From Desulfobulbaceae bacterium (GTDB lineage Bacteria; Desulfobacterota; Desulfobulbia; Desulfobulbales; VMSU01), in NCBI GenBank assembly GCA_015231515.1, contig JADGBM010000025.1:1-33256 (forward strand): DNA of 33,256 bases, given 5' to 3'. The first letter of the stretch is position 1. Each line of letters opens with the position of its first letter. Shown here piece by piece: positions 2 to 12,955 of this stretch. A program made the position numbers and the translations under genes. Below the pieces are notes generated by a model. It saw nothing but the letters and a program-made list of their open reading frames with translations. It was not told where the DNA came from and did not search any database.

Positions 2-1015
2 TCTCTGAAAATGCGCCTCTGCAATCTACCCATTGATGGTGCCAAGTGTGGCATCAACTACGACCCCTATTCGCCAGGAAAGCGCCAAGCCATGAAAAAA
101 TTCATGGCGGCGATTAAGCCCTACATCACGACATCATACTCCATGGGACCAGATCTCAATACTGACATGGAAGAGCTTGAAGCAATTGCCCATGAACTCG
201 ACATCCCTTCTGTCAAAATCGCCATTGCCAAGACACAGGGAATGGACATCGCTTCATTTACCGACAGATACGCTATTCTCCAGTCTCCTGCTATCGACTC
301 CTGGCCTCTTGGTAAAGTAAGGGCCGGATACGGGGTTGCCATGGCTGCATTAGCAACCCTTACATACCTCAACCTACCAGCCAAAGACAGCGTAATCGCC
401 GTCCAGGGTTTTGGCAATCTGGCCAAATCCACTATAGTTGGGCTATTAAAGGCAGGAGTCAACATACGAGCAATTGCAGACACCCAAAAATGCTACATTG
501 CAAAGGCCGGTCGCCATCTACCACTTGATTATCTGCTCAGCCATAGCGGCACGCTTCTGCCAGAACTGTCGTTTCCTGATCATGACGTAATCAGCACAGA
601 TAAAGAGGCTGTTCTCTCCAGTGACTGCGATATATTAATCTTAGCGGCGGTTGAAAATGTGGTGACTTCCAGGAATGCCCACCAGATTCGAGCCAAGGCA
701 ATTGTGCCAGGCGCAAATCTGGCTATCGATGCCTCAGGGGAGCACGCCCTGTTCAAAAAAGGAATTCTGGCCCTCCCCTCTTTTATGGCTGGCTGCGGAG
801 GCTCATTGTCTATGAACGGGCTCTTTGGCCCACAGTCGCCACCAACGCCTGCGGAAGTGCTTGCCTACATAGAGCATAGCATGACCGAGATGACCATGAA
901 GGTTCTCTCTGTCGCCCAGACTCAAACAGTAACTCCATCTGCTGCCGCTTTGGAAATATGCAACAGCGCCATCGTACCTCTAAGAAATAAACCATATATG
1001 CAGACCAAGGCATAA
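2..1015 (+). CDS. Glu/Leu/Phe/Val dehydrogenase family protein, 5'-truncated by the window edge
   Basis: NAD(P)-dependent oxidative deamination of an amino acid is the family activity; the substrate cannot be told from this fragment. The frame is open to the first base, so the N-terminus lies outside the window and the ATG at 11 is internal. The first residues seen are S-L-K-M. That Lys, and the Lys of PIDGAKCGI twelve residues on, match the two lysines of the glutamate/leucine dehydrogenase active site, and GPDLNTD carries the family's catalytic Asp. The Rossmann domain follows with VQGFGNLAKSTI (GxGxxx type), then AAVENVVTS and IVPGANLAI as in the C-terminal NAD domain. Deviations from the family consensus (GGAKGG read as DGAKCG, GFGNVG as GFGNLA) suggest a divergent paralogue rather than housekeeping GdhA. 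It is followed by a terminator-like hairpin and, 243 bp on, by two C-N/C-O lyase genes on the same strand. Confidence 0.85.
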   Translation, partial: SLKMRLCNLPIDGAKCGINYDPYSPGKRQAMKKFMAAIKPYITTSYSMGPDLNTDMEELEAIAHELDIPSVKIAIAKTQGMDIASFTDRYAILQSPAIDSWPLGKVRAGYGVAMAALATLTYLNLPAKDSVIAVQGFGNLAKSTIVGLLKAGVNIRAIADTQKCYIAKAGRHLPLDYLLSHSGTLLPELSFPDHDVISTDKEAVLSSDCDILILAAVENVVTSRNAHQIRAKAIVPGANLAIDASGEHALFKKGILALPSFMAGCGGSLSMNGLFGPQSPPTPAEVLAYIEHSMTEMTMKVLSVAQTQTVTPSAAALEICNSAIVPLRNKPYMQTKA

Positions 1016-1043
1016 TGTTAACAACACCAATTTCTTATTTTGA

Positions 1044-1099
1044 ACAATGGCTTAGCTTGTTGTCATCGCCCCGGCAAAGCCGTTGTATTTTTATTTTTA
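1044..1099 (+). terminator. Probable rho-independent terminator after the dehydrogenase gene
   Basis: ACAATGGCTT (1044-1053) pairs with AAGCCGTTGT (1077-1086) with one G-U pair. A small CGGC/GCCG hairpin overlaps the right arm, and the run ATTTTTATTTTTA follows directly. It begins about 28 bases after the TAA of the dehydrogenase gene. The remaining spacer to 1258 is AT-rich and holds no gene I can recognise. Confidence 0.5.
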
Positions 1100-1258
1100 A
1101 TGTGGGTAATGCAATGGAGCATTATGTATTAAAAATATAACGACTTAACTCCACAAAAAAACAGTACAACAGACTGTATATACGTATTTTTTATCAAATA
1201 ATTACTGTACACGAATTTTGCTTATTTCCATTACTCCAGAGCTCAGAGCCAACGTCAA

Positions 1259-2653
1259 ATGCCATCACATCCAATTGATTTTACGATACAATCGCTGGTT
1301 TTCTCTACCAAAGAAAGCGCCCTGATTTTTGATGAACAAACCCGCTTCTCCCGCTGGCTCTCCTTTGAGGCCGCTCTGGCCAGTTCTCAGGCCGAGCTTA
1401 ACATTATTCCCCAACAAGCCGCCGACACAATCTGTAAAAATGCACGGCTTGAGTCTCTGGATATTAATCAAATTGCCCTGGAATACACGACCAATAGAAA
1501 TTCGCTGGTTCCAGTCCTGAAAGTTCTGCGTAAAGCCTGCGGGAAGTATGGCGATTATGTTCACTTTGGCGCAACTACTCAGGATGTGCTTGACACCTGC
1601 CTGATCCTCGAAATCAAAGATTCACTCTCTTTGGCATACCGAGATCTTCGGACCATCGAAGATGCTCTTCTGCGCCTGGCAAAAGAGCACCGGCTTACCC
1701 CGATGATTGGCAGAACACATAGTCAACAGGCTATGCCTATCACCTTTGGACTAAAGGTCTCAATCTGGCTCGCAGAGTTGCGCCGACATATCGAACGCCT
1801 CAAATCGGTAGCGCACAGAGTTCTTTGTGGTCAGTTAAGCGGTGCGGTCGGCACTATGGCAGCCCTGGGTGATAAAGGTCTTGAAACATCAGAAAGAACA
1901 ATGGCCAAACTTGGACTAGCCTCAAGCGCCCTACCTTGGCACACATCCCGTGACAATATCGCCGAAACTTGTGGCGTCTTTTCCATGATAACTGCTACAG
2001 CCTGTAAAATTGCAAACGAAGTTTTTCAACTTGGCAAAACCGAAATCCTTGAACTGCGTGAACCATCAGCTGCCGGTAAAAGTGCAGGAAGCAGCACCAT
2101 GCCCCATAAACGCAACCCCGTTTTGTGCGAAAGAGTTGCCGTGCTCGCTACCCATGTCCGCGCCCTGGCTCAAATTACTCAAGAGAGTATGATCCATGAA
2201 AATGAGCGAGACCCTCGCTCCCTCTGGGCCGAGTGGCTTGCAGTGCCGCAGATCTCGATATACACAGCAACCGCCTTGAATTACCTTAAGCAAATAACTG
2301 CCAATCTTGAGGTTTTTCCAGACCGAATGCTAAGCAATATCCATCTGCACAAGGACTCTATTCTTTCAGAATGGCTGCTTTTCAAAATCAGCTCAGTGAC
2401 TGGAAAGACAAAGGCCCTTGAACTCATTAATGATTTTAGTGTCGAGTCCAAACAGAGTGGCCGAGCTACAAAAGAACTTATTGCTGCCCATAAAGATCTT
2501 GCACCACATTTCAGCCCTGAAGATTTATTGATGTTTGATTGCCCGGAACGCTACATTGGCCTTGCGCCAGAAATTGTTGATGTTACAATTAGGGATATTG
2601 AGAAAAAGCGAGCTCAGGATCCGCTTAAACTTGACAAACTCGCAAAAAGTTAA
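1259..2653 (+). CDS. PcaB/PurB-like lyase of the fumarase/aspartase superfamily (copy 1)
   Basis: A 464-residue member of the class II fumarase/aspartase superfamily, whose enzymes eliminate fumarate from succinyl-amines or open/close lactones. Visible family blocks are HFGATTQDVLDT near residue 101, GRTHSQQAMPITFGLK near 150 (the His of the TH motif is kept), and the signature SSTMPHKRNP near 280 with the mobile-loop serine used as general base. The HFGATTQD block resembles 3-carboxymuconate cycloisomerase (PcaB) more than PurB, while the TH motif, lost in some PcaB proteins, is retained. The substrate is therefore open: adenylosuccinate lyase, CMLE-like or an aminodicarboxylate lyase are all possible. 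The start has only a weak Shine-Dalgarno match. It is clearly paralogous to the gene at 3406; both follow the amino-acid dehydrogenase on the same strand. Confidence 0.85.
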   Translation: MPSHPIDFTIQSLVFSTKESALIFDEQTRFSRWLSFEAALASSQAELNIIPQQAADTICKNARLESLDINQIALEYTTNRNSLVPVLKVLRKACGKYGDYVHFGATTQDVLDTCLILEIKDSLSLAYRDLRTIEDALLRLAKEHRLTPMIGRTHSQQAMPITFGLKVSIWLAELRRHIERLKSVAHRVLCGQLSGAVGTMAALGDKGLETSERTMAKLGLASSALPWHTSRDNIAETCGVFSMITATACKIANEVFQLGKTEILELREPSAAGKSAGSSTMPHKRNPVLCERVAVLATHVRALAQITQESMIHENERDPRSLWAEWLAVPQISIYTATALNYLKQITANLEVFPDRMLSNIHLHKDSILSEWLLFKISSVTGKTKALELINDFSVESKQSGRATKELIAAHKDLAPHFSPEDLLMFDCPERYIGLAPEIVDVTIRDIEKKRAQDPLKLDKLAKS

Positions 2654-2696
2654 AAAAGGTTCAGCGCCACTTAACGAAATCAACTCGTTAAAGAGC

Positions 2697-2724
2697 GAGC
2701 CGGGGATGTCGAGCGGCTTTTTGC
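2697..2724 (+). terminator. Weak terminator-like hairpin after lyase copy 1
   Basis: AGCCG (2698-2702) pairs with CGGCT (2714-2718) and TTTTTG follows. The five-base stem is short, so termination here is only possible, not certain. It lies 45 bases past the TAA of the lyase gene. Confidence 0.35.
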
Positions 2725-2934
2725 GAGACCATCAAACTTGGGGCTTAAAAAACGATTTACTTTCACCACCGAGCACAGAAAAAACTGCTTTAATATTAGC
2801 CACGGAACCACACAGAAACACACGAAAAAAGAAAATAACTAACTTTCGTAAATTTGAGTTCTGAGTTCTTTTTTTAGCCAGCAGTGCTATGGGAATGACA
2901 ATAGTAGCTGAAAGTCAGGGGTAATCACATAAAG

Positions 2935-3243
2935 TTTCCTGATTAGCGCTAATCTTCCTCAACAAGCTCAACATCTCCAGCGGTTTTTTATCGGTGATCA
3001 ATGATTTCGGACGGTTATAATTGGACAGTAAGGAGTTTTCATTTATACATAAGATAAAAAATCCCCCTGAGTCCCCCTGCAAAGGGGATTCAGGGGGATT
3101 TTGTGAAGTCTGAGACTAACTCATATTTGTTGCTGCTTTAATATCTAAATCCCGTCCGCAGGACATTAAGTTTGTTCCGGGTCAAAAGCGCTTCAGAAAT
3201 AAGACTTTTAGTGTGCTGCGGAAGATTAGCACTAATCAGGAAA
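2935..3243. repeat. 309-bp MITE-like element bounded by 24-base inverted repeats
   Basis: The 24 bases at 2935-2958 are the reverse complement of 3220-3243 with one mismatch. Each arm also contains its own palindrome, GATTAGCGCTAATC on the left and GATTAGCACTAATC on the right. No open frame of note lies between, and I find no target-site duplication in the flanks (ACATAAAG on the left, GATTAACT on the right). It could be a non-autonomous insertion, the relic of an insertion sequence, or a paired protein-binding site. Confidence 0.55.
3058..3102. repeat. C/G-rich dispersed hairpin repeat
   Basis: A 19-base arm, AAAATCCCCCTGAGTCCCC (3058-3076), faces its reverse complement at 3084-3102 with one mismatch and a 7-base loop. 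Hairpins of the 'AATCCCCC...GGGGGATT' type are familiar as dispersed intergenic repeats in many bacterial genomes (recalled, not searched). This one lies inside the 2935-3243 element. Confidence 0.65.
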
Positions 3244-3264
3244 GATTAACTGCTTAAATTATTA

Positions 3265-3339
3265 GCCACGAACACACACTGACACACACGGACAACTGCT
3301 TTTTCTTTTTGTTTGTGTGGGTCTGTGTGGGTCTGTGGC
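3265..3339. repeat. GT/CA-rich dispersed hairpin repeat
   Basis: GCCACGAACACACACTGAC and following bases (3265-3289) pair imperfectly with the GTGTGGGTCTGTGTGGGTC-type arm at 3315-3339 across a T-rich loop. It belongs to the 'gccac...cacacac' class of intergenic repeats. A single-arm relative is seen at about 2797-2830. It lies 67 bases before the second lyase gene. Confidence 0.55.
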
Positions 3340-3405
3340 AAAAAAATTATATCGCTTTCATTTTTTAAAAAGTCCTAACAACGACTCAGAATACTTAAGA
3401 GACCG

Positions 3406-4764
3406 ATGACTGACCATTACAGCCATATTATTGATTCCAGATTTTATCGTGACGGCTACAGCACTGAAGAGACGCGCCAAATTTTCGGTGATATGCGCAG
3501 AATGCAGCGCTGGCTTGATGTTGAGCTCTGCCTGACAAACTGCCAGGCAGAGCTTGGCATCATTCCCAAGAAAGCCGCAAAAGCTCTCGCCCTGACAGCC
3601 TCTCTGGAAAAGTTCGATATCCAGAGAATCCAAGACGATATTGCCAAAACCGGACACTCACTTATTCCTCTGCTTAATGAGTGGCAGAGAATTTCCGGTG
3701 AAGACGGACAATATATTCATTACGGCGCTACAACCCAAGACATACAGGATACCGCCCAATCTCTTGAGATACAGGAAGCAATAGACCTTCTGGAAAGAGA
3801 TATAGCAGAACTTATCTCGCTTCTTGCGGACAAATCCAAACAATATCGTGATGTTATCTGTGTAGGGCGCACTCACGGCCAGCAGGCGCTTCCCACAACT
3901 TTAGGCCTGAAAATCTCCACCTGGCTAGACGAAACAATGCGCAATCAGCAACGCCTACAGCAGTGCAAGCAGCGGGTCTTGGTCAGCCAGCTCTTTGGCG
4001 GGGTTGGTACCATGTCGGCTTTATCGGCACAGGCCCAGACATTACTGGAAAACTTCTCCGCCGCTCTGGGCCTGACTGCGCCGGACAGTTCATGGCACAG
4101 TGCTCGTGACCGAACCGCGGAGCTGATCAGCGTTTTGGCTCTGATCAGCGGCGGACTTGCCCGCTCTGCCAATGAGATATGTCAGCTCGCTAAAAATGAG
4201 ATCGGCGAACTAGCTGAACCTTTTACCGCTGGTCAGATCGGCAGCAGCACAATGCCCCACAAGCGAAACCCTGAGCTTTGCGAACAGGTTGTCGTTTTGT
4301 CAAAACTCATTAAGGCAAATGCCATGAGTGGTTTCGACACGTTATGCGGTGAGCATGAACGCGACTACCGAACAGTTCGCCTTGAGTGGGTCGCTCTGAC
4401 AGAAGCGATCACCTTTTGCTGCGCCGCCCTGAAGTTTCAGAAAAAGATTATTAAAAATCTTGTTGTAAATGAGGCGCAGATAAAGAACAATCTGAACCAG
4501 GCAGCCATCTTTATTTCAACCGAAGCGCTTATGTTTTTACTTGGAGAGAAAATTGGCAAGCAATGCGCCCATGAATTAATTTACAAGGCCTCTCAGCTGT
4601 GCAGCAGCAGCGGCAAGGAGTTAATCGACATTTTACTTAAGGATGAGCTGATACGTGGGAATTTCTCGAGATCTGATTTAGAGCAGGCTATACTTCTCGA
4701 AAATCATGTGGGACAATCCGCTCAATTAATTGATCGGCTTACCCAAAAAGCAAGGCAGCTTTAA
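3406..4764 (+). CDS. PcaB/PurB-like lyase of the fumarase/aspartase superfamily (copy 2)
   Basis: A 452-residue paralogue of the gene at 1259 with the same block order: NCQAELGIIP near residue 45, HYGATTQDIQDTA near 105, GRTHGQQALPTTLGLK near 155, and the signature GSSTMPHKRNP near 280. The TH histidine and the signature-loop serine are both present, so an active enzyme is expected. The family forms tetramers with active sites at three-subunit junctions. Two similar lyases in a row could be two steps of one pathway or a mixed oligomer; the sequence does not decide. The ATG has an AAGAGA-type weak ribosome site. The repeat-filled spacer upstream argues against tight co-transcription with copy 1. 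Confidence 0.85.
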   Translation: MTDHYSHIIDSRFYRDGYSTEETRQIFGDMRRMQRWLDVELCLTNCQAELGIIPKKAAKALALTASLEKFDIQRIQDDIAKTGHSLIPLLNEWQRISGEDGQYIHYGATTQDIQDTAQSLEIQEAIDLLERDIAELISLLADKSKQYRDVICVGRTHGQQALPTTLGLKISTWLDETMRNQQRLQQCKQRVLVSQLFGGVGTMSALSAQAQTLLENFSAALGLTAPDSSWHSARDRTAELISVLALISGGLARSANEICQLAKNEIGELAEPFTAGQIGSSTMPHKRNPELCEQVVVLSKLIKANAMSGFDTLCGEHERDYRTVRLEWVALTEAITFCCAALKFQKKIIKNLVVNEAQIKNNLNQAAIFISTEALMFLLGEKIGKQCAHELIYKASQLCSSSGKELIDILLKDELIRGNFSRSDLEQAILLENHVGQSAQLIDRLTQKARQL

Positions 4765-8019: not shown

Positions 8020-8985
8020 TTACCCCTTTTCAACTCCTTGCAGAAACACCTGAGCCTTTTCTATTTCACTCATAACCGTTACACCAAGCCCCCTTAGATC
8101 ATCCCATTTCATCCCCATAAGTTCAAGAACACTGAGCAGATGCTGACTTTCTGAATACAAGTCACCAGCCGAACCAATCTCATAAATGTTTGCATAGAGA
8201 TTGGCCAAGGCCACAGCAGCGACAATTTTTCGGTTTTTCTCTGAGGCTCGTTCCGGAGAATGGTGAAAGGAAAGCGTTTCAACAATAGTATCGTTCAACT
8301 GCCATTTTTTAGCGATCAACGAACCAGCTGCTCCATGATCAATGCCAACGATCAGTTTTTCAGAGCGATACAAGGCGCTCTGTTCAAGATCCGCCAACTG
8401 AAGTGCCTGCACATAGGTTTCTGCAAAACAGTTATTAAGGGGTATTTTGCCAAGATCATGAAGCATTCCAGCCACAAAGTATTCCTCTCTCTCAGCCGTT
8501 GGTACATTTATCATGGCAGCTAGAAGCTTAGCCGTAACCCCTACACAGATCGAGTGCGCCCAGAAGGCATCCATGGGCAAACTCTTAAAGGACTCCTGTT
8601 TACCTAATGTGCCGATAATAGCCGTACTTAGGGCGAGATTCTTTACTGTATTGAGACCAAGCATAATGATGGCTCTGGTCAGCGACGAAATTTGATTCGG
8701 CAGCGAATAATAGGCAGAGTTAATCATTTTCAGGACCTGCCCGGTCAGAACTGGATCGAGCGAAATAACCCTGTTCAGATCGTTTGGAGCGGCATTCGGA
8801 GTATTACAAACCTGAAGCACCTTCGTTACGGTCGTTGACAAACTGGGCATGCGGTCTATGTAGTCTTTGATTGTCTCTTCTTGATCCTGCATTTCCGTTA
8901 TAACTCTGTAGCCCTTGCCAGCCGAGCGCAAAATTAATAAAGATTGATAACCAACACCAGTTAAGATGGTATCATGGAAAAGCAT
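8020..8985 (-). CDS. HDOD domain signalling protein
   Basis: 321 residues from the first ATG. The HDOD domain runs from about residue 46: MPSLSTTVTKVLQVC, then LDPVLTGQVLKMINSAYYSLP and LGLNTVKNLALS are its hallmarks. The later HD-like part keeps H144, HDLGK (H176-D177) and SFHHSPE near residue 240, more than many HDOD proteins retain. Such proteins act in stress and motility signalling, often without catalysis. The start is uncertain: residues 1-31 are not typical of the family and neither the ATG at 8985 nor the one at 8892 (residue 32) has a clear ribosome site. It heads the run HDOD, MBL hydrolase, FlaG-like protein. Confidence 0.85.
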   Translation of the reverse strand: MLFHDTILTGVGYQSLLILRSAGKGYRVITEMQDQEETIKDYIDRMPSLSTTVTKVLQVCNTPNAAPNDLNRVISLDPVLTGQVLKMINSAYYSLPNQISSLTRAIIMLGLNTVKNLALSTAIIGTLGKQESFKSLPMDAFWAHSICVGVTAKLLAAMINVPTAEREEYFVAGMLHDLGKIPLNNCFAETYVQALQLADLEQSALYRSEKLIVGIDHGAAGSLIAKKWQLNDTIVETLSFHHSPERASEKNRKIVAAVALANLYANIYEIGSAGDLYSESQHLLSVLELMGMKWDDLRGLGVTVMSEIEKAQVFLQGVEKG

Positions 8986-9146: not shown

Positions 9147-9914
9147 TCATTGGCCCTGAAGGCGATTAAAGGCAACAGCCTCCTGGTAGGTAATTCCGGA
9201 ACCGCCAAAAATATCCAGGGCACTACCGATAGTCACGTCCAGCTTGCCCTTGCCAAGGAGTTTCACCTGCTCAAGGTCGTCACTGTTTTTTACACCGCCG
9301 GCATAGGTTGTGGGAATCGTGACCCATTCACCTATATCACGAGTTAAATCTGTCTCAATACCTGCACATTTACCTTCAACGTCGACAGCGTGGATTAAAA
9401 ACTCACAACAAAATGCCGAGAAATACCGTAACGATTCCGGCGAGATAGACACCTCTGTAAACTTTTGCCAACGATCAGTAACAATAAAATAGGCATCACC
9501 TTTTTTCCGACAGCTCAAATCAAGTACCAATCGGTCCTTACCGACAAGTTTGAGCAAAGAGCGCAACCTGTCTTCATAAACATGGCCGTCCTTAAAAACA
9601 TATGAGGTAACAATCACCTGACTGGCCCCCTGATCGAGCCAATATGCTGCATTTTCTTCGGTAATACCGCCACCTATCTGCATTCCGCCTGGATAGGCGT
9701 TCAAGGCAACAACCGCGGCCTCATCACACCCAGCCCCTAATTTAATAATGTGACCACCGGTCAATCGATCGTTACGATAGAGCTCCGCATAAAAAGACGA
9801 GGGCTTGTCCGATGAAAAATTAGTGGTAAGTTCTGAGGCAGCATCATCGAGGGTTGAACCGACGATCTGCTTGACACGGCCTTCATGCAGGTCTATACAC
9901 GGTCTAAATTTCAT
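9147..9914 (-). CDS. hisA: HisA, eukaryotic (HIS6) type ProFAR isomerase
   Basis: A 255-residue TIM barrel that should catalyse the fourth step of histidine synthesis, the Amadori isomerisation of ProFAR to PRFAR. It follows the yeast/plant HIS6 pattern rather than ordinary bacterial HisA: CIDLHEGRVKQIVG with catalytic Asp8, TNFSSDKPSSFYAELYR, GGHIIKLG, MQIGGGI, VIVTSYVFKDGH, KDRLVLDLSCRKK, EFLIHAVDVEGKCAGIE near 171-187, TYAGGVKNSDDL and IGSALDIFGG near 229-238. That block order, in particular DLSCRK and HAVDVEGKCAGI, is diagnostic in my memory of the family. No other his gene lies in the window. Upstream is a terminator-like hairpin ending about 24 bases before the ATG; the ribosome site is AAGGGA. 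It likely comes from transfer between domains or from an old bacterial branch of the family. Confidence 0.88.
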   Translation of the reverse strand: MKFRPCIDLHEGRVKQIVGSTLDDAASELTTNFSSDKPSSFYAELYRNDRLTGGHIIKLGAGCDEAAVVALNAYPGGMQIGGGITEENAAYWLDQGASQVIVTSYVFKDGHVYEDRLRSLLKLVGKDRLVLDLSCRKKGDAYFIVTDRWQKFTEVSISPESLRYFSAFCCEFLIHAVDVEGKCAGIETDLTRDIGEWVTIPTTYAGGVKNSDDLEQVKLLGKGKLDVTIGSALDIFGGSGITYQEAVAFNRLQGQ

Positions 9915-10036: not shown

Positions 10037-10096
10037 AGTGCCTTTCGCAGAGTATTTTCTTGTAAAAAAAAGCAAGAATATACTCTGCAAGGCACT
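10037..10096 (-). repeat. Long near-perfect hairpin at the stop codon of the ATPase gene
   Basis: The arms 10037-10062 and 10073-10096 pair over about 24 bases with one mismatch and small bulges around a loop of mostly A (T in the leftward transcript). The right arm starts inside the TAG at 10095-10097. Such a stem can protect an mRNA 3' end; no T-run follows it, so it is not itself a standard terminator. Confidence 0.65.
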
Positions 10097-10814
10097 AAAA
10101 AGTGGTTCCCCAGACTACCATACTGGTTGGGTCAAGACGAAGCGACTTGCCGGGCTCTACACAACCAGTGGCATCTTTTAAGACGTTCAAAAATATTTTA
10201 CTATCACCTTCAGACTGAGCCTCTAGCAAGATGACAGTTTCAAAGAGATCGGCAACCTCATTACAAGGAACCGGAACCCCCTCTGCACTAACCTCAGTTT
10301 TGTCTCTGTGGGTCAGGGCTGAAAACCAAAGGCTCATTCCAGCCTGTTGCTGTAGATCACGCATATCTTCAATAGCCTGGCGATTAATAGTAGCAAAATC
10401 AAGACCATCAATAACCATACAGCTCGGACGAAAGATATCTTGATATATAAGATCATTCAGACGTTCCTCAAGTTTCGGTCGGCTAAAGGAGGATTCATTA
10501 AAAGTCATGATCATACGATTACGCATGACTTCATACTGAAGATCTGCAAGTCTCTGATCCTCACATCCAGAGGCTATATCCGCCAGGATATCATCATACC
10601 AGGCCTTGGTCTTCTGAATATTCTGTCCTATGGTTACGTGCAGTACCTGCCGGCCTTTAAGCATGTTATCAAGGGCAATCTGCACCAATATAGCGGTTTT
10701 ACCCAGGCCGGCACGAGCCATTACCAGGCCCATGCGCATATTACTATCACTACCGCTCACCTCTGCACTGAAGGCCCCTAGTGGATTTTTCGTTATCAGA
10801 TCATTTTTCAACAT
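10095..10814 (-). CDS. RecA/DnaB-like P-loop ATPase of unknown role
   Basis: 239 residues with the core of a RecA/KaiC/DnaB-type ATPase and nothing else. Walker A is ARAGLGKTA (residues 33-41), followed by the LVQIALDNMLKGRQVLHVTIGQ pattern seen after the P-loop in DnaB and KaiC. Walker B is SCMVIDGLDF near residue 136-139, and the ALTHRDK segment sits where DnaB/RecA proteins have a sensor strand. No DNA-binding or KaiC second domain is present. The start has an AAGGAAG ribosome site. It lies 53 bases after fusA on the same strand, so the two are probably co-transcribed. A role next to translation elongation is a guess. Its stop codon lies in the foot of a long hairpin. Confidence 0.75.
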   Translation of the reverse strand: MLKNDLITKNPLGAFSAEVSGSDSNMRMGLVMARAGLGKTAILVQIALDNMLKGRQVLHVTIGQNIQKTKAWYDDILADIASGCEDQRLADLQYEVMRNRMIMTFNESSFSRPKLEERLNDLIYQDIFRPSCMVIDGLDFATINRQAIEDMRDLQQQAGMSLWFSALTHRDKTEVSAEGVPVPCNEVADLFETVILLEAQSEGDSKIFLNVLKDATGCVEPGKSLRLDPTSMVVWGTTF

Positions 10815-10867: not shown

Positions 10868-12955
10868 CTATTTCTTTTCTTCATCTGCCTTTTTCTTTAC
10901 AGCGGCAATTACTTCTTCAGACACAGATTTTGGAACTTGTCGATAGGCGGCAAATTCCATCGTAAACTCAGCTTTACCCTGAGTCATAGAGCGTAAGTCT
11001 GTTGAGTAGCCAAACATCTCAGCAAGCGGCACTTCCGCCTCAATAACGGTATATTCGTTTTCTTCAAGGGTTCCGATAATCATACCGCGACGCTGATTCA
11101 AACTTCCCATAACTGAGCCCTGGAACTCAGTCGGCCCTTCTACTGCCACCTTCATGATTGGTTCCATGAGTACAGCACCTGCCTTGCCGTAACCTTCCTT
11201 GAACGCCCCTTTTGCCGCAAGCTGAAACGCTATATCAGAGGAGTCAACAGAGTGCGCGGCACCATCGTTAATTACGCAGCGTACATTGGTTACCGGAAAG
11301 CCTGCCAAGGCACCCTTGGCCAGACTTGCGCTAAAACCTTTGTCACAAGAAGAGATAAACTCTCGGGGGATAACACCGCCGACAATTTTATCCACAAATT
11401 CGTACTCTTTCTCCTCACAAGGCTCCAGATAGCCGCCAACTCGTCCAAATTGCCCCGAACCTCCGGTCTGTTTCTTGTGGGTATAATTAAATTCAGCCAT
11501 TTTAGTAATTGTTTCACGATAGGCAACCTGAGGAGCACCTACATGAACTTCCGCGGCATACTCACGCTTCATACGCTCAATATACACTTCCAGATGCAGC
11601 TCGCCCATACCGGAAATAATTGTATCACCCGTCTCATGATCAACAAAGGTCTTAAAGGTAGGGTCTTCTTTGGTGAAACGGTTCAGGGCCTTGGACATAT
11701 TGCCCTGAGCCTTGTTGTCTATTGGCTTAATGGCCAGCGAAATAACCGGGGCAGGGACATGCATAGAGCTCATGGACATATCAATCTCCGGAGAGGTAAA
11801 TGTGTCACCTGACGCACAATCAACACCAAAAAGAGCCACGATGTCACCGGGGCCCGCCACATCAATATCTTCCATTTCATTAGAATGCATACGAGCCAGT
11901 CGACCGACCTTTACCTTCTTACCGGTGCGACTGTTAACAATGGTATCACCTTTACGCATTGTGCCCTGATAGGTCCTGATATAGGTCAACTGGCCATAGC
12001 GCCCATCTTCAAGCTTGAAGGCCAGGCATACAAGGGGGGCATCAGGGTTGCTCTGAAGTATGACCTCCTCTTCATTATTATTAATATCAAGAGCGATATT
12101 TTCAATATCTGCCGGAGCCGGAAGATATCGAACAACAGCATCCAACATAGCCTGCACACCCTTATTTTTATAGGCTGAGCCAATAAAGACCGGGGCAAGC
12201 TCAAGCGAAAGTGTTCCAGTTCGGACAGCGTCCATGATCATCTTTTCGGTCGGCGTTCCCTCAAGAACAGCTTCCATAAGTTCGTCAGAAAACATCGAGG
12301 CAGCGTCAAGCATCAACTCGCGCTTTTCCTCAGCCTTCGCAACTAATGCAGCTGGAATCTCTGCTTCACGGATAATTTCGCCGTTATCACCTTCAAAGTA
12401 AATGGCCTTCATGGTAACCAGGTCAATAACACCCTCAAGATTGGCCTCGAGCCCGATGGGAAGCTGCATAAACACTGCATTGAGTTTAAGTTTATCACAT
12501 ACCTGATCTGCAACTCGCTGTGGGTTGGCGCCAGTTCTGTCACACTTGTTAATAAAGACAATACGTGGCACCTTATAACGCGTCATCTGACGGTTAACGG
12601 TAATACTCTGTGACTGTACACCGCCAACTGAGCAAAGAATCAGAACCGCCCCATCCAGAACTCGGAGCGCCCGTTCAACCTCAATGGTAAAATCAACATG
12701 ACCAGGGGTATCAATAATGTTGATGTCATGTCCCTTCCAAGTACAATAGGTTGCCGCAGACTGGATAGTGATACCACGCTCTTTTTCCAACTCCATAGAG
12801 TCCATGGTTGCACCGACACCGTCCTTACCACGAACCTCGTGAATAGCATGGATTTTATCTGTATAAAAGAGCACTCGCTCGGTCAAGGTTGTCTTACCCG
12901 AGTCAATATGAGCACTAATCCCAATATTTCGAACTTTTTCTAGATCCTTTTTCAT
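10868..12955 (-). CDS. fusA: Elongation factor G, mitochondrial EFG1/spdEFG1-like
   Basis: A complete 695-residue translational GTPase that moves tRNA and mRNA through the ribosome. G motifs: AHIDSGKTT (15-23), [24 protein letters not shown] and GSAYKNKG. Domains II-V follow with [38 protein letters not shown] and [19 protein letters not shown]. The P-loop Ser in place of Ala, the segment [19 protein letters not shown] and [15 protein letters not shown] are typical of mitochondrial EFG1 and its bacterial kin (spdEFG1 of spirochaetes, planctomycetes and some deltaproteobacteria), not of ordinary EF-G. In line with that, no rpsL, rpsG or tuf gene is beside it. An AAGGA ribosome site precedes the ATG. 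A candidate promoter and a leader hairpin lie upstream; the P-loop ATPase gene follows after 53 bases. Confidence 0.93.

Follow-up and report, generated by a model that had tools for sequence, protein, structure and literature searches.

Gene content of the window and family assignment

The window, that is, the whole stretch of DNA analysed here (33,256 nucleotides from a Desulfobulbaceae bacterium), carries a predicted isomerase gene of the histidine pathway with three recognizable neighbours on the same strand (Table 1). The open reading frame of this gene starts with ATG and extends over 255 codons, and the plus-strand frame across the same interval is interrupted by stops. Elsewhere in the window, at positions 11-4764, two Lyase_1 genes come after a glutamate-dehydrogenase-like gene. 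The two Lyase_1 genes resemble adenylosuccinate lyase and the 3-sulfopropionylcysteine synthase XcbD, with scores below the curated XcbD cut-off, and the region is possibly an uncharacterised lyase cluster.

Table 1. Positions of hisA and its neighbours in the window
Feature	Position	Strand	Evidence
Elongation factor G gene, upstream of hisA	10868..12955	minus	TIGR00484 EF-G, 1007 bits
AAA-type ATPase-like gene, directly upstream of hisA	10095..10814	minus	Weak PF13401 match, below the Pfam cut-off
hisA, eukaryotic type (HIS6/HISN3, TIGR02129), 255 aa, predicted ProFAR isomerase	9147..9914	minus	Profile and PDB matches, structure model
HDOD-domain gene, downstream of hisA	8020..8985	minus	PF08668, 189 bits

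A first-pass annotation, made from the sequence without database searches, had assigned the protein to the yeast and plant (HIS6) type on the basis of four short blocks, all of which were found. It proposed that the eukaryotic and bacterial family models be compared, and a better bacterial score would have spoken against the assignment. The protein scored 362.6 bits with NCBIfam TIGR02129 (hisA_euk; cut-off, 229.3), with residues 2-251 aligned to positions 2-255 of the 255 in the profile, and only 68.5 bits with the bacterial HisA model TIGR00007 (cut-off, 228.95). A third model, TIGR01919, which describes the dual PriA/HisA-TrpF enzymes, gave 19.3 bits against a cut-off of 306. The best sequence matches in the PDB were HISN3 of Medicago (287 bits) and His6 of yeast (224 bits), the third reaching 35 bits; identities in a multiple alignment were 54% and 47%, respectively. 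An AlphaFold model built with bacterial relatives only had a mean pLDDT of 91, and the top three Foldseek matches to it were 9fcg (TM-score 0.95), 9fcf (0.93) and 2agk (0.86), followed by HisF (0.76). Given the TIGR02129 score, the PDB matches and this ranking, the family assignment of the annotation was correct. Since TIGR02129 belongs to NCBI's prokaryotic annotation set, the gene is a newly seen member of a kind that is already known. Among the papers that could be searched, none naming TIGR02129 or a bacterial eukaryote-type HisA was found.

Active-site residues

In the structure paper on yeast His6, Asp9 and Asp134 are reportedly described as the catalytic acid/base pair. Counting along the PDB alignment matched these residues to positions 8 and 132 of the window protein, so that we take Asp8 and Asp132 to be their equivalents. 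Asp8 (in CIDLH) is kept in 106 of 107 members of the TIGR02129 family, the sole exception being the sequence of the Medicago crystal structure, in which D57N had been introduced on purpose. Both Asp132 (VLDLSC) and His175 (EFLIH) are conserved in all 107. Because these residues are conserved, including both aspartates of the yeast pair, the window protein is expected to have ProFAR isomerase activity. Profile-profile alignment with canonical HisA by hhalign gave a probability of 97% (E 5.5e-11); strand 6 is shifted in that alignment, and the second catalytic Asp was therefore not assigned from it. Two other bacterial members (L007 and L105) have a His in place of the otherwise conserved Asp178 of the DVEG motif.

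The histidine pathway of the genome

The annotation had also suggested looking for a second, normal hisA, and a search of the window's own genome for canonical HisA found none. The same genome encodes a HisH-HisF fusion of 535 aa on another contig (G000:C45:1821-3425; L033:229-1836), which passes both the HisF and the HisH models and matches yeast HIS7 with 602 bits over residues 9-535, including blocks missing from bacterial HisF. Further contigs carry hisD and hisB. The pathway is scattered and looks usable. As the only HisA in its genome, the window protein is most likely a working ProFAR isomerase. It would catalyse step 4 of histidine biosynthesis, and the PRFAR that it forms would most likely be passed to the HIS7-type fusion. 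Another genome of the same order (G261, 99% complete) retains HisHF and hisB, lacks hisD and HisA of either type, and represents a partly lost histidine pathway.

Barrels of the HisA/HisF kind are frequently recruited to new reactions, and we know of no assay of a bacterial hisA_euk member. The protein might accordingly be a paralogue with another job, such as a cyclase or a PriA-like dual HisA/TrpF enzyme, rather than the pathway isomerase. We regard this as very improbable, because the genome has HisHF, hisB and hisD and offers no other HisA candidate, because the catalytic residues of the protein are retained, and because hisA_euk and canonical hisA were mutually exclusive in all genomes checked (see below). 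A dual HisA/TrpF function in particular was ruled out, since a separate TrpF (174.6 bits) is encoded on a further contig of the genome and makes such a role unnecessary.

Distribution among bacteria

Proteins of this type had been thought, in the annotation, to be rare in bacteria, a view that the genome counts contradict. In the phylum to which the window belongs, 25 of 297 genomes scored above the TIGR02129 cut-off, among them 11 of the 12 from its order. So did 102 of 241 Verrucomicrobiota (the phylum of Victivallis) and 8 of 151 Armatimonadota; none of 14 control genomes did. Among named bacterial and archaeal genomes, at least 591 stretches were confirmed, where one gene can yield two stretches, and 80 loci were kept from these. 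The 80 loci come from Desulfobulbales, Verrucomicrobiota, Lentisphaerota, Kiritimatiellota, Bacillota (Paenibacillus and Gracilibacillus) and Armatimonadota, with single metagenome-assembled genomes (MAGs) of Nitrospirota, Spirochaetota and Rokubacteria. Several of the bacterial records are MAGs. The single representatives of Nitrospirae, Rokubacteria and Spirochaetes could be binning errors, and the labels "Myxococcota" and "Pseudomonadota" belong to loosely named MAGs that are probably Desulfobacterota.

Canonical HisA (TIGR00007 above its cut-off) was absent from all 50 genomes with hisA_euk in which it was sought (25 of the phylum and 25 named ones), where the other matches to this model were, by position and frame length, hisA_euk itself, HisF or HisHF. 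Conversely, among seven genomes of the phylum that have HisHF and lack hisA_euk and were examined for comparison, canonical HisA scored above the cut-off in six and just below it in one. Thus, hisA_euk replaces canonical HisA in the genomes checked. More broadly, the His6/HISN3 branch of the HisA/HisF barrels would be a long-standing bacterial family, in a form that plants and fungi also use, and it would substitute for canonical HisA in the Desulfobulbales, in a large part of the Verrucomicrobiota and in parts of several other phyla.

The survey also turned up some irregular copies. Two genomes have two hisA_euk copies each: in G186 (G186:C20:32377-33114) one of them contains an in-frame TAG, and in G478 (G478:C42:48040-50726) some 1.2 kb separates the two copies, whose scores are identical. 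In two Armatimonadota (L216 and L217) the gene is part of much longer open frames of 463 and 470 aa. The read-through of L217 continues after the barrel into a cysteine-rich segment (CPCCGY...CPVC) and is possibly a fusion. Two putative viral contigs of IMG/VR carry hisA_euk (L187:2995-3771 and L188:2992-3741), in the latter next to Hsp20, GroEL and an endolysin-like gene; these may be phage-borne metabolic genes or misassigned bacterial contigs. The scan of viral contigs gave these two relatives only, and no recognizably eukaryotic sequence.

Gene neighbourhood

The annotation had described the gene as standing alone behind a terminator. No other his gene was present among the window genes scanned, in agreement with the first part of this description. 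As to the second, one terminator-like site does lie on the minus strand at 9974-9960, but it is weak, and 1.8 such sites are expected by chance.

The surroundings of hisA are shared with related bacteria. Of the 80 named loci, 31 have EF-G about 3 kb upstream in the same orientation as hisA, and almost all of these come from Desulfobulbales or from unspecific "Deltaproteobacteria". An ATPase motif occurs between EF-G and hisA in many Desulfobulbales loci, as it does in the window. In some Desulfobulbales an HDOD-type gene follows hisA on the 3' side, with a similar gene start in L082, L083, L088, L090 and L118. The closest relatives of the window protein are from Desulfobulbaceae, with 73% identity. 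The conserved order EF-G, ATPase, hisA and these relatives point to old vertical inheritance within the Desulfobulbales rather than recent import.

The scattered his genes and the match to a "eukaryotic" model could, at first sight, suggest that the window bacterium alone acquired the gene recently, or that eukaryotic DNA contaminates the assembly. Either event is extremely improbable. The gene lies on a bacterial contig of 33 kb, its gene order is common to some 30 other loci of the Desulfobulbales type, its nearest relatives are bacterial (the 73% above, as compared with 54% for Medicago), and hisA_euk is present in 11 of the 12 genomes of the order. Recent transfer and contamination were ruled out on the synteny and the nearest relatives.

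Co-occurrence with a HIS7-type fusion

Within the window's phylum, 48 of 297 genomes carry the HisHF fusion. It is present in 18 of the 25 genomes with hisA_euk and in 30 of the 272 others (Fisher p 5.5e-11, a value that ignores the relatedness of the genomes). Seven genomes of the phylum have hisA_euk and no fusion, and the hisA_euk-positive Verrucomicrobiota and Bacillota that were checked have a separate HisF. The link between the two genes is statistical and not obligate. In a tree of the HisF domain, yeast HIS7 joins the bacterial HisHF in a group that excludes single HisF (100/100), and it lies inside that group.

Trees and the origin of the family

Trees of hisA_euk contained only two eukaryotic rows, Medicago and yeast, of which yeast forms a very long branch. 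In a careful tree of 80 rows with no outgroup, Medicago grouped with an Armatimonadota MAG and one genome of a Desulfobacterota family (100/96), and yeast adjoined the Verrucomicrobiota without firm support. With extra rows of Armatimonadota and Verrucomicrobiota, Medicago stayed in a group rich in Armatimonadota (81), and yeast remained close to the Verrucomicrobiota with weak support. Monophyly of the eukaryotes costs 15 log units and was not rejected by the AU test (p-AU 0.279). In a tree rooted on canonical HisA and HisF by a quick method, hisA_euk formed one clade (100) separate from both outgroups, with both eukaryotes inside it; the window protein thus lies outside bacterial HisA, and the placement that the annotation had named as a refutation is not seen. 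In a second rooted set, from which yeast was omitted, the plant, Armatimonadota and G208 rows took an unsupported basal position, and a tree that holds all bacterial rows together, apart from the plant, was not rejected (p-AU 0.404). The outgroups are only about 20% identical to hisA_euk, so that the rooting is unreliable, and the order at the base varied with the rows used, so that the root supports no claim on the direction of transfer.

Two origins had been offered in the annotation, transfer between domains and an overlooked bacterial branch from which eukaryotes were supplied. The latter fits better, in view of the spread over phyla, the synteny and the grouping of Medicago; a recent transfer from a eukaryote to this bacterium is unsupported, and the AU tests reject neither monophyly of the eukaryotes (0.279) nor that of the bacterial rows (0.404). 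The tree results lean towards a bacterial origin without settling the direction. With the yeast and plant type of HisA so widespread in several bacterial phyla, the eukaryotic gene is as likely to have come from bacteria as to have passed to them.

The opposite direction has a precedent in the literature. Fani et al. (2007; PMC1963479) reported HisHF in two delta-proteobacteria and, from the clustering of three bacterial HisHF sequences with plants, proposed that hisHF was transferred from plants to these bacteria. By extension, bacteria could have received hisA_euk in ancient times from a plant or an alga, along with the HIS7 fusion, and the gene could later have moved from one bacterial phylum to another. 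The clustering in that study, the co-occurrence of hisA_euk and HisHF in the phylum, and the AU test that allows the plant outside the bacterial rows are all compatible with such a donor. Nonetheless, we consider it unlikely. The family extends across Desulfobacterota, Verrucomicrobiota, Bacillota, Armatimonadota and others; bacterial diversity encloses both eukaryotes in the tree rooted on HisA plus HisF; HisHF in the phylum goes well beyond two species, and yeast HIS7 falls within the bacterial fusions; and the seven hisA_euk genomes without a fusion imply that any transfer of the two genes was not strictly joint.

A more recent paper (2021; PMC8305728) names two possible sources of the fusion, an origin within eukaryotes or a "still unknown" prokaryotic donor. 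In a tentative scenario, which we hold to be less likely than not, bacteria supplied eukaryotes with both HIS6 and HIS7. HIS7 would stem from a Desulfobacterota-like lineage in which HisH and HisF were already fused, and HIS6 may have been taken up more than once, with the plant gene near Armatimonadota and the fungal gene near Verrucomicrobiota.

Our main reading, to which we give a probability of roughly 85%, is that the window gene would encode the only 5'-ProFAR isomerase of the cell, that it belongs to the His6/HISN3 branch, and that this branch has long existed in bacteria, where it takes the place of canonical HisA. For the branch itself we infer that it arose in bacteria and was not handed over by eukaryotes in the distant past.

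Significance

What deserves note is how widely hisA_euk occurs among bacteria, and that it keeps company with a HIS7-type fusion. In the literature, HIS7 is regarded as a fusion of eukaryotes. About one-sixth of the genomes sampled from the window's phylum carry the fused enzyme, and several bacterial phyla commonly have the eukaryotic-type enzyme of the preceding step. The source of the middle of the eukaryotic histidine pathway has thus become a question that a well-sampled tree can test. On the practical side, annotation that seeks canonical hisA alone would report a gap in the histidine pathway of many Desulfobulbales and Verrucomicrobiota.

Comparison with known systems

The closest characterized relative is HISN3 of Medicago truncatula (PDB 9fcf/9fcg), which shares the TIGR02129 model and has the blocks CIDLH, LDLSCRK, DVEGK and SALDIFGG identical to those of the window protein. 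A longer segment near residues 23-28 and a two-residue "AD" insertion in the LGAD block are plant features that the window protein lacks, and its gene is on a bacterial chromosome with no plastid setting. Yeast His6 (PDB 2agk) is of the same family and similar in fold (the TM-score of 0.86 given above), but it evolves much faster, as seen in the longest branch, and has no RPC motif. Canonical bacterial HisA (TIGR00007) shares the (beta/alpha)8 barrel superfamily and the predicted reaction, whereas it has about 22% identity to the window protein and forms a separate clade; the yeast His6 structure paper reportedly places its second catalytic Asp at another sequence position. Finally, eukaryotic HIS7/HISN4 (yeast PDB 1jvn) is a HisH-HisF fusion resembling the 535-aa protein of the window's genome, which is encoded outside the window and would act at step 5, directly after the step 4 predicted for the window protein.
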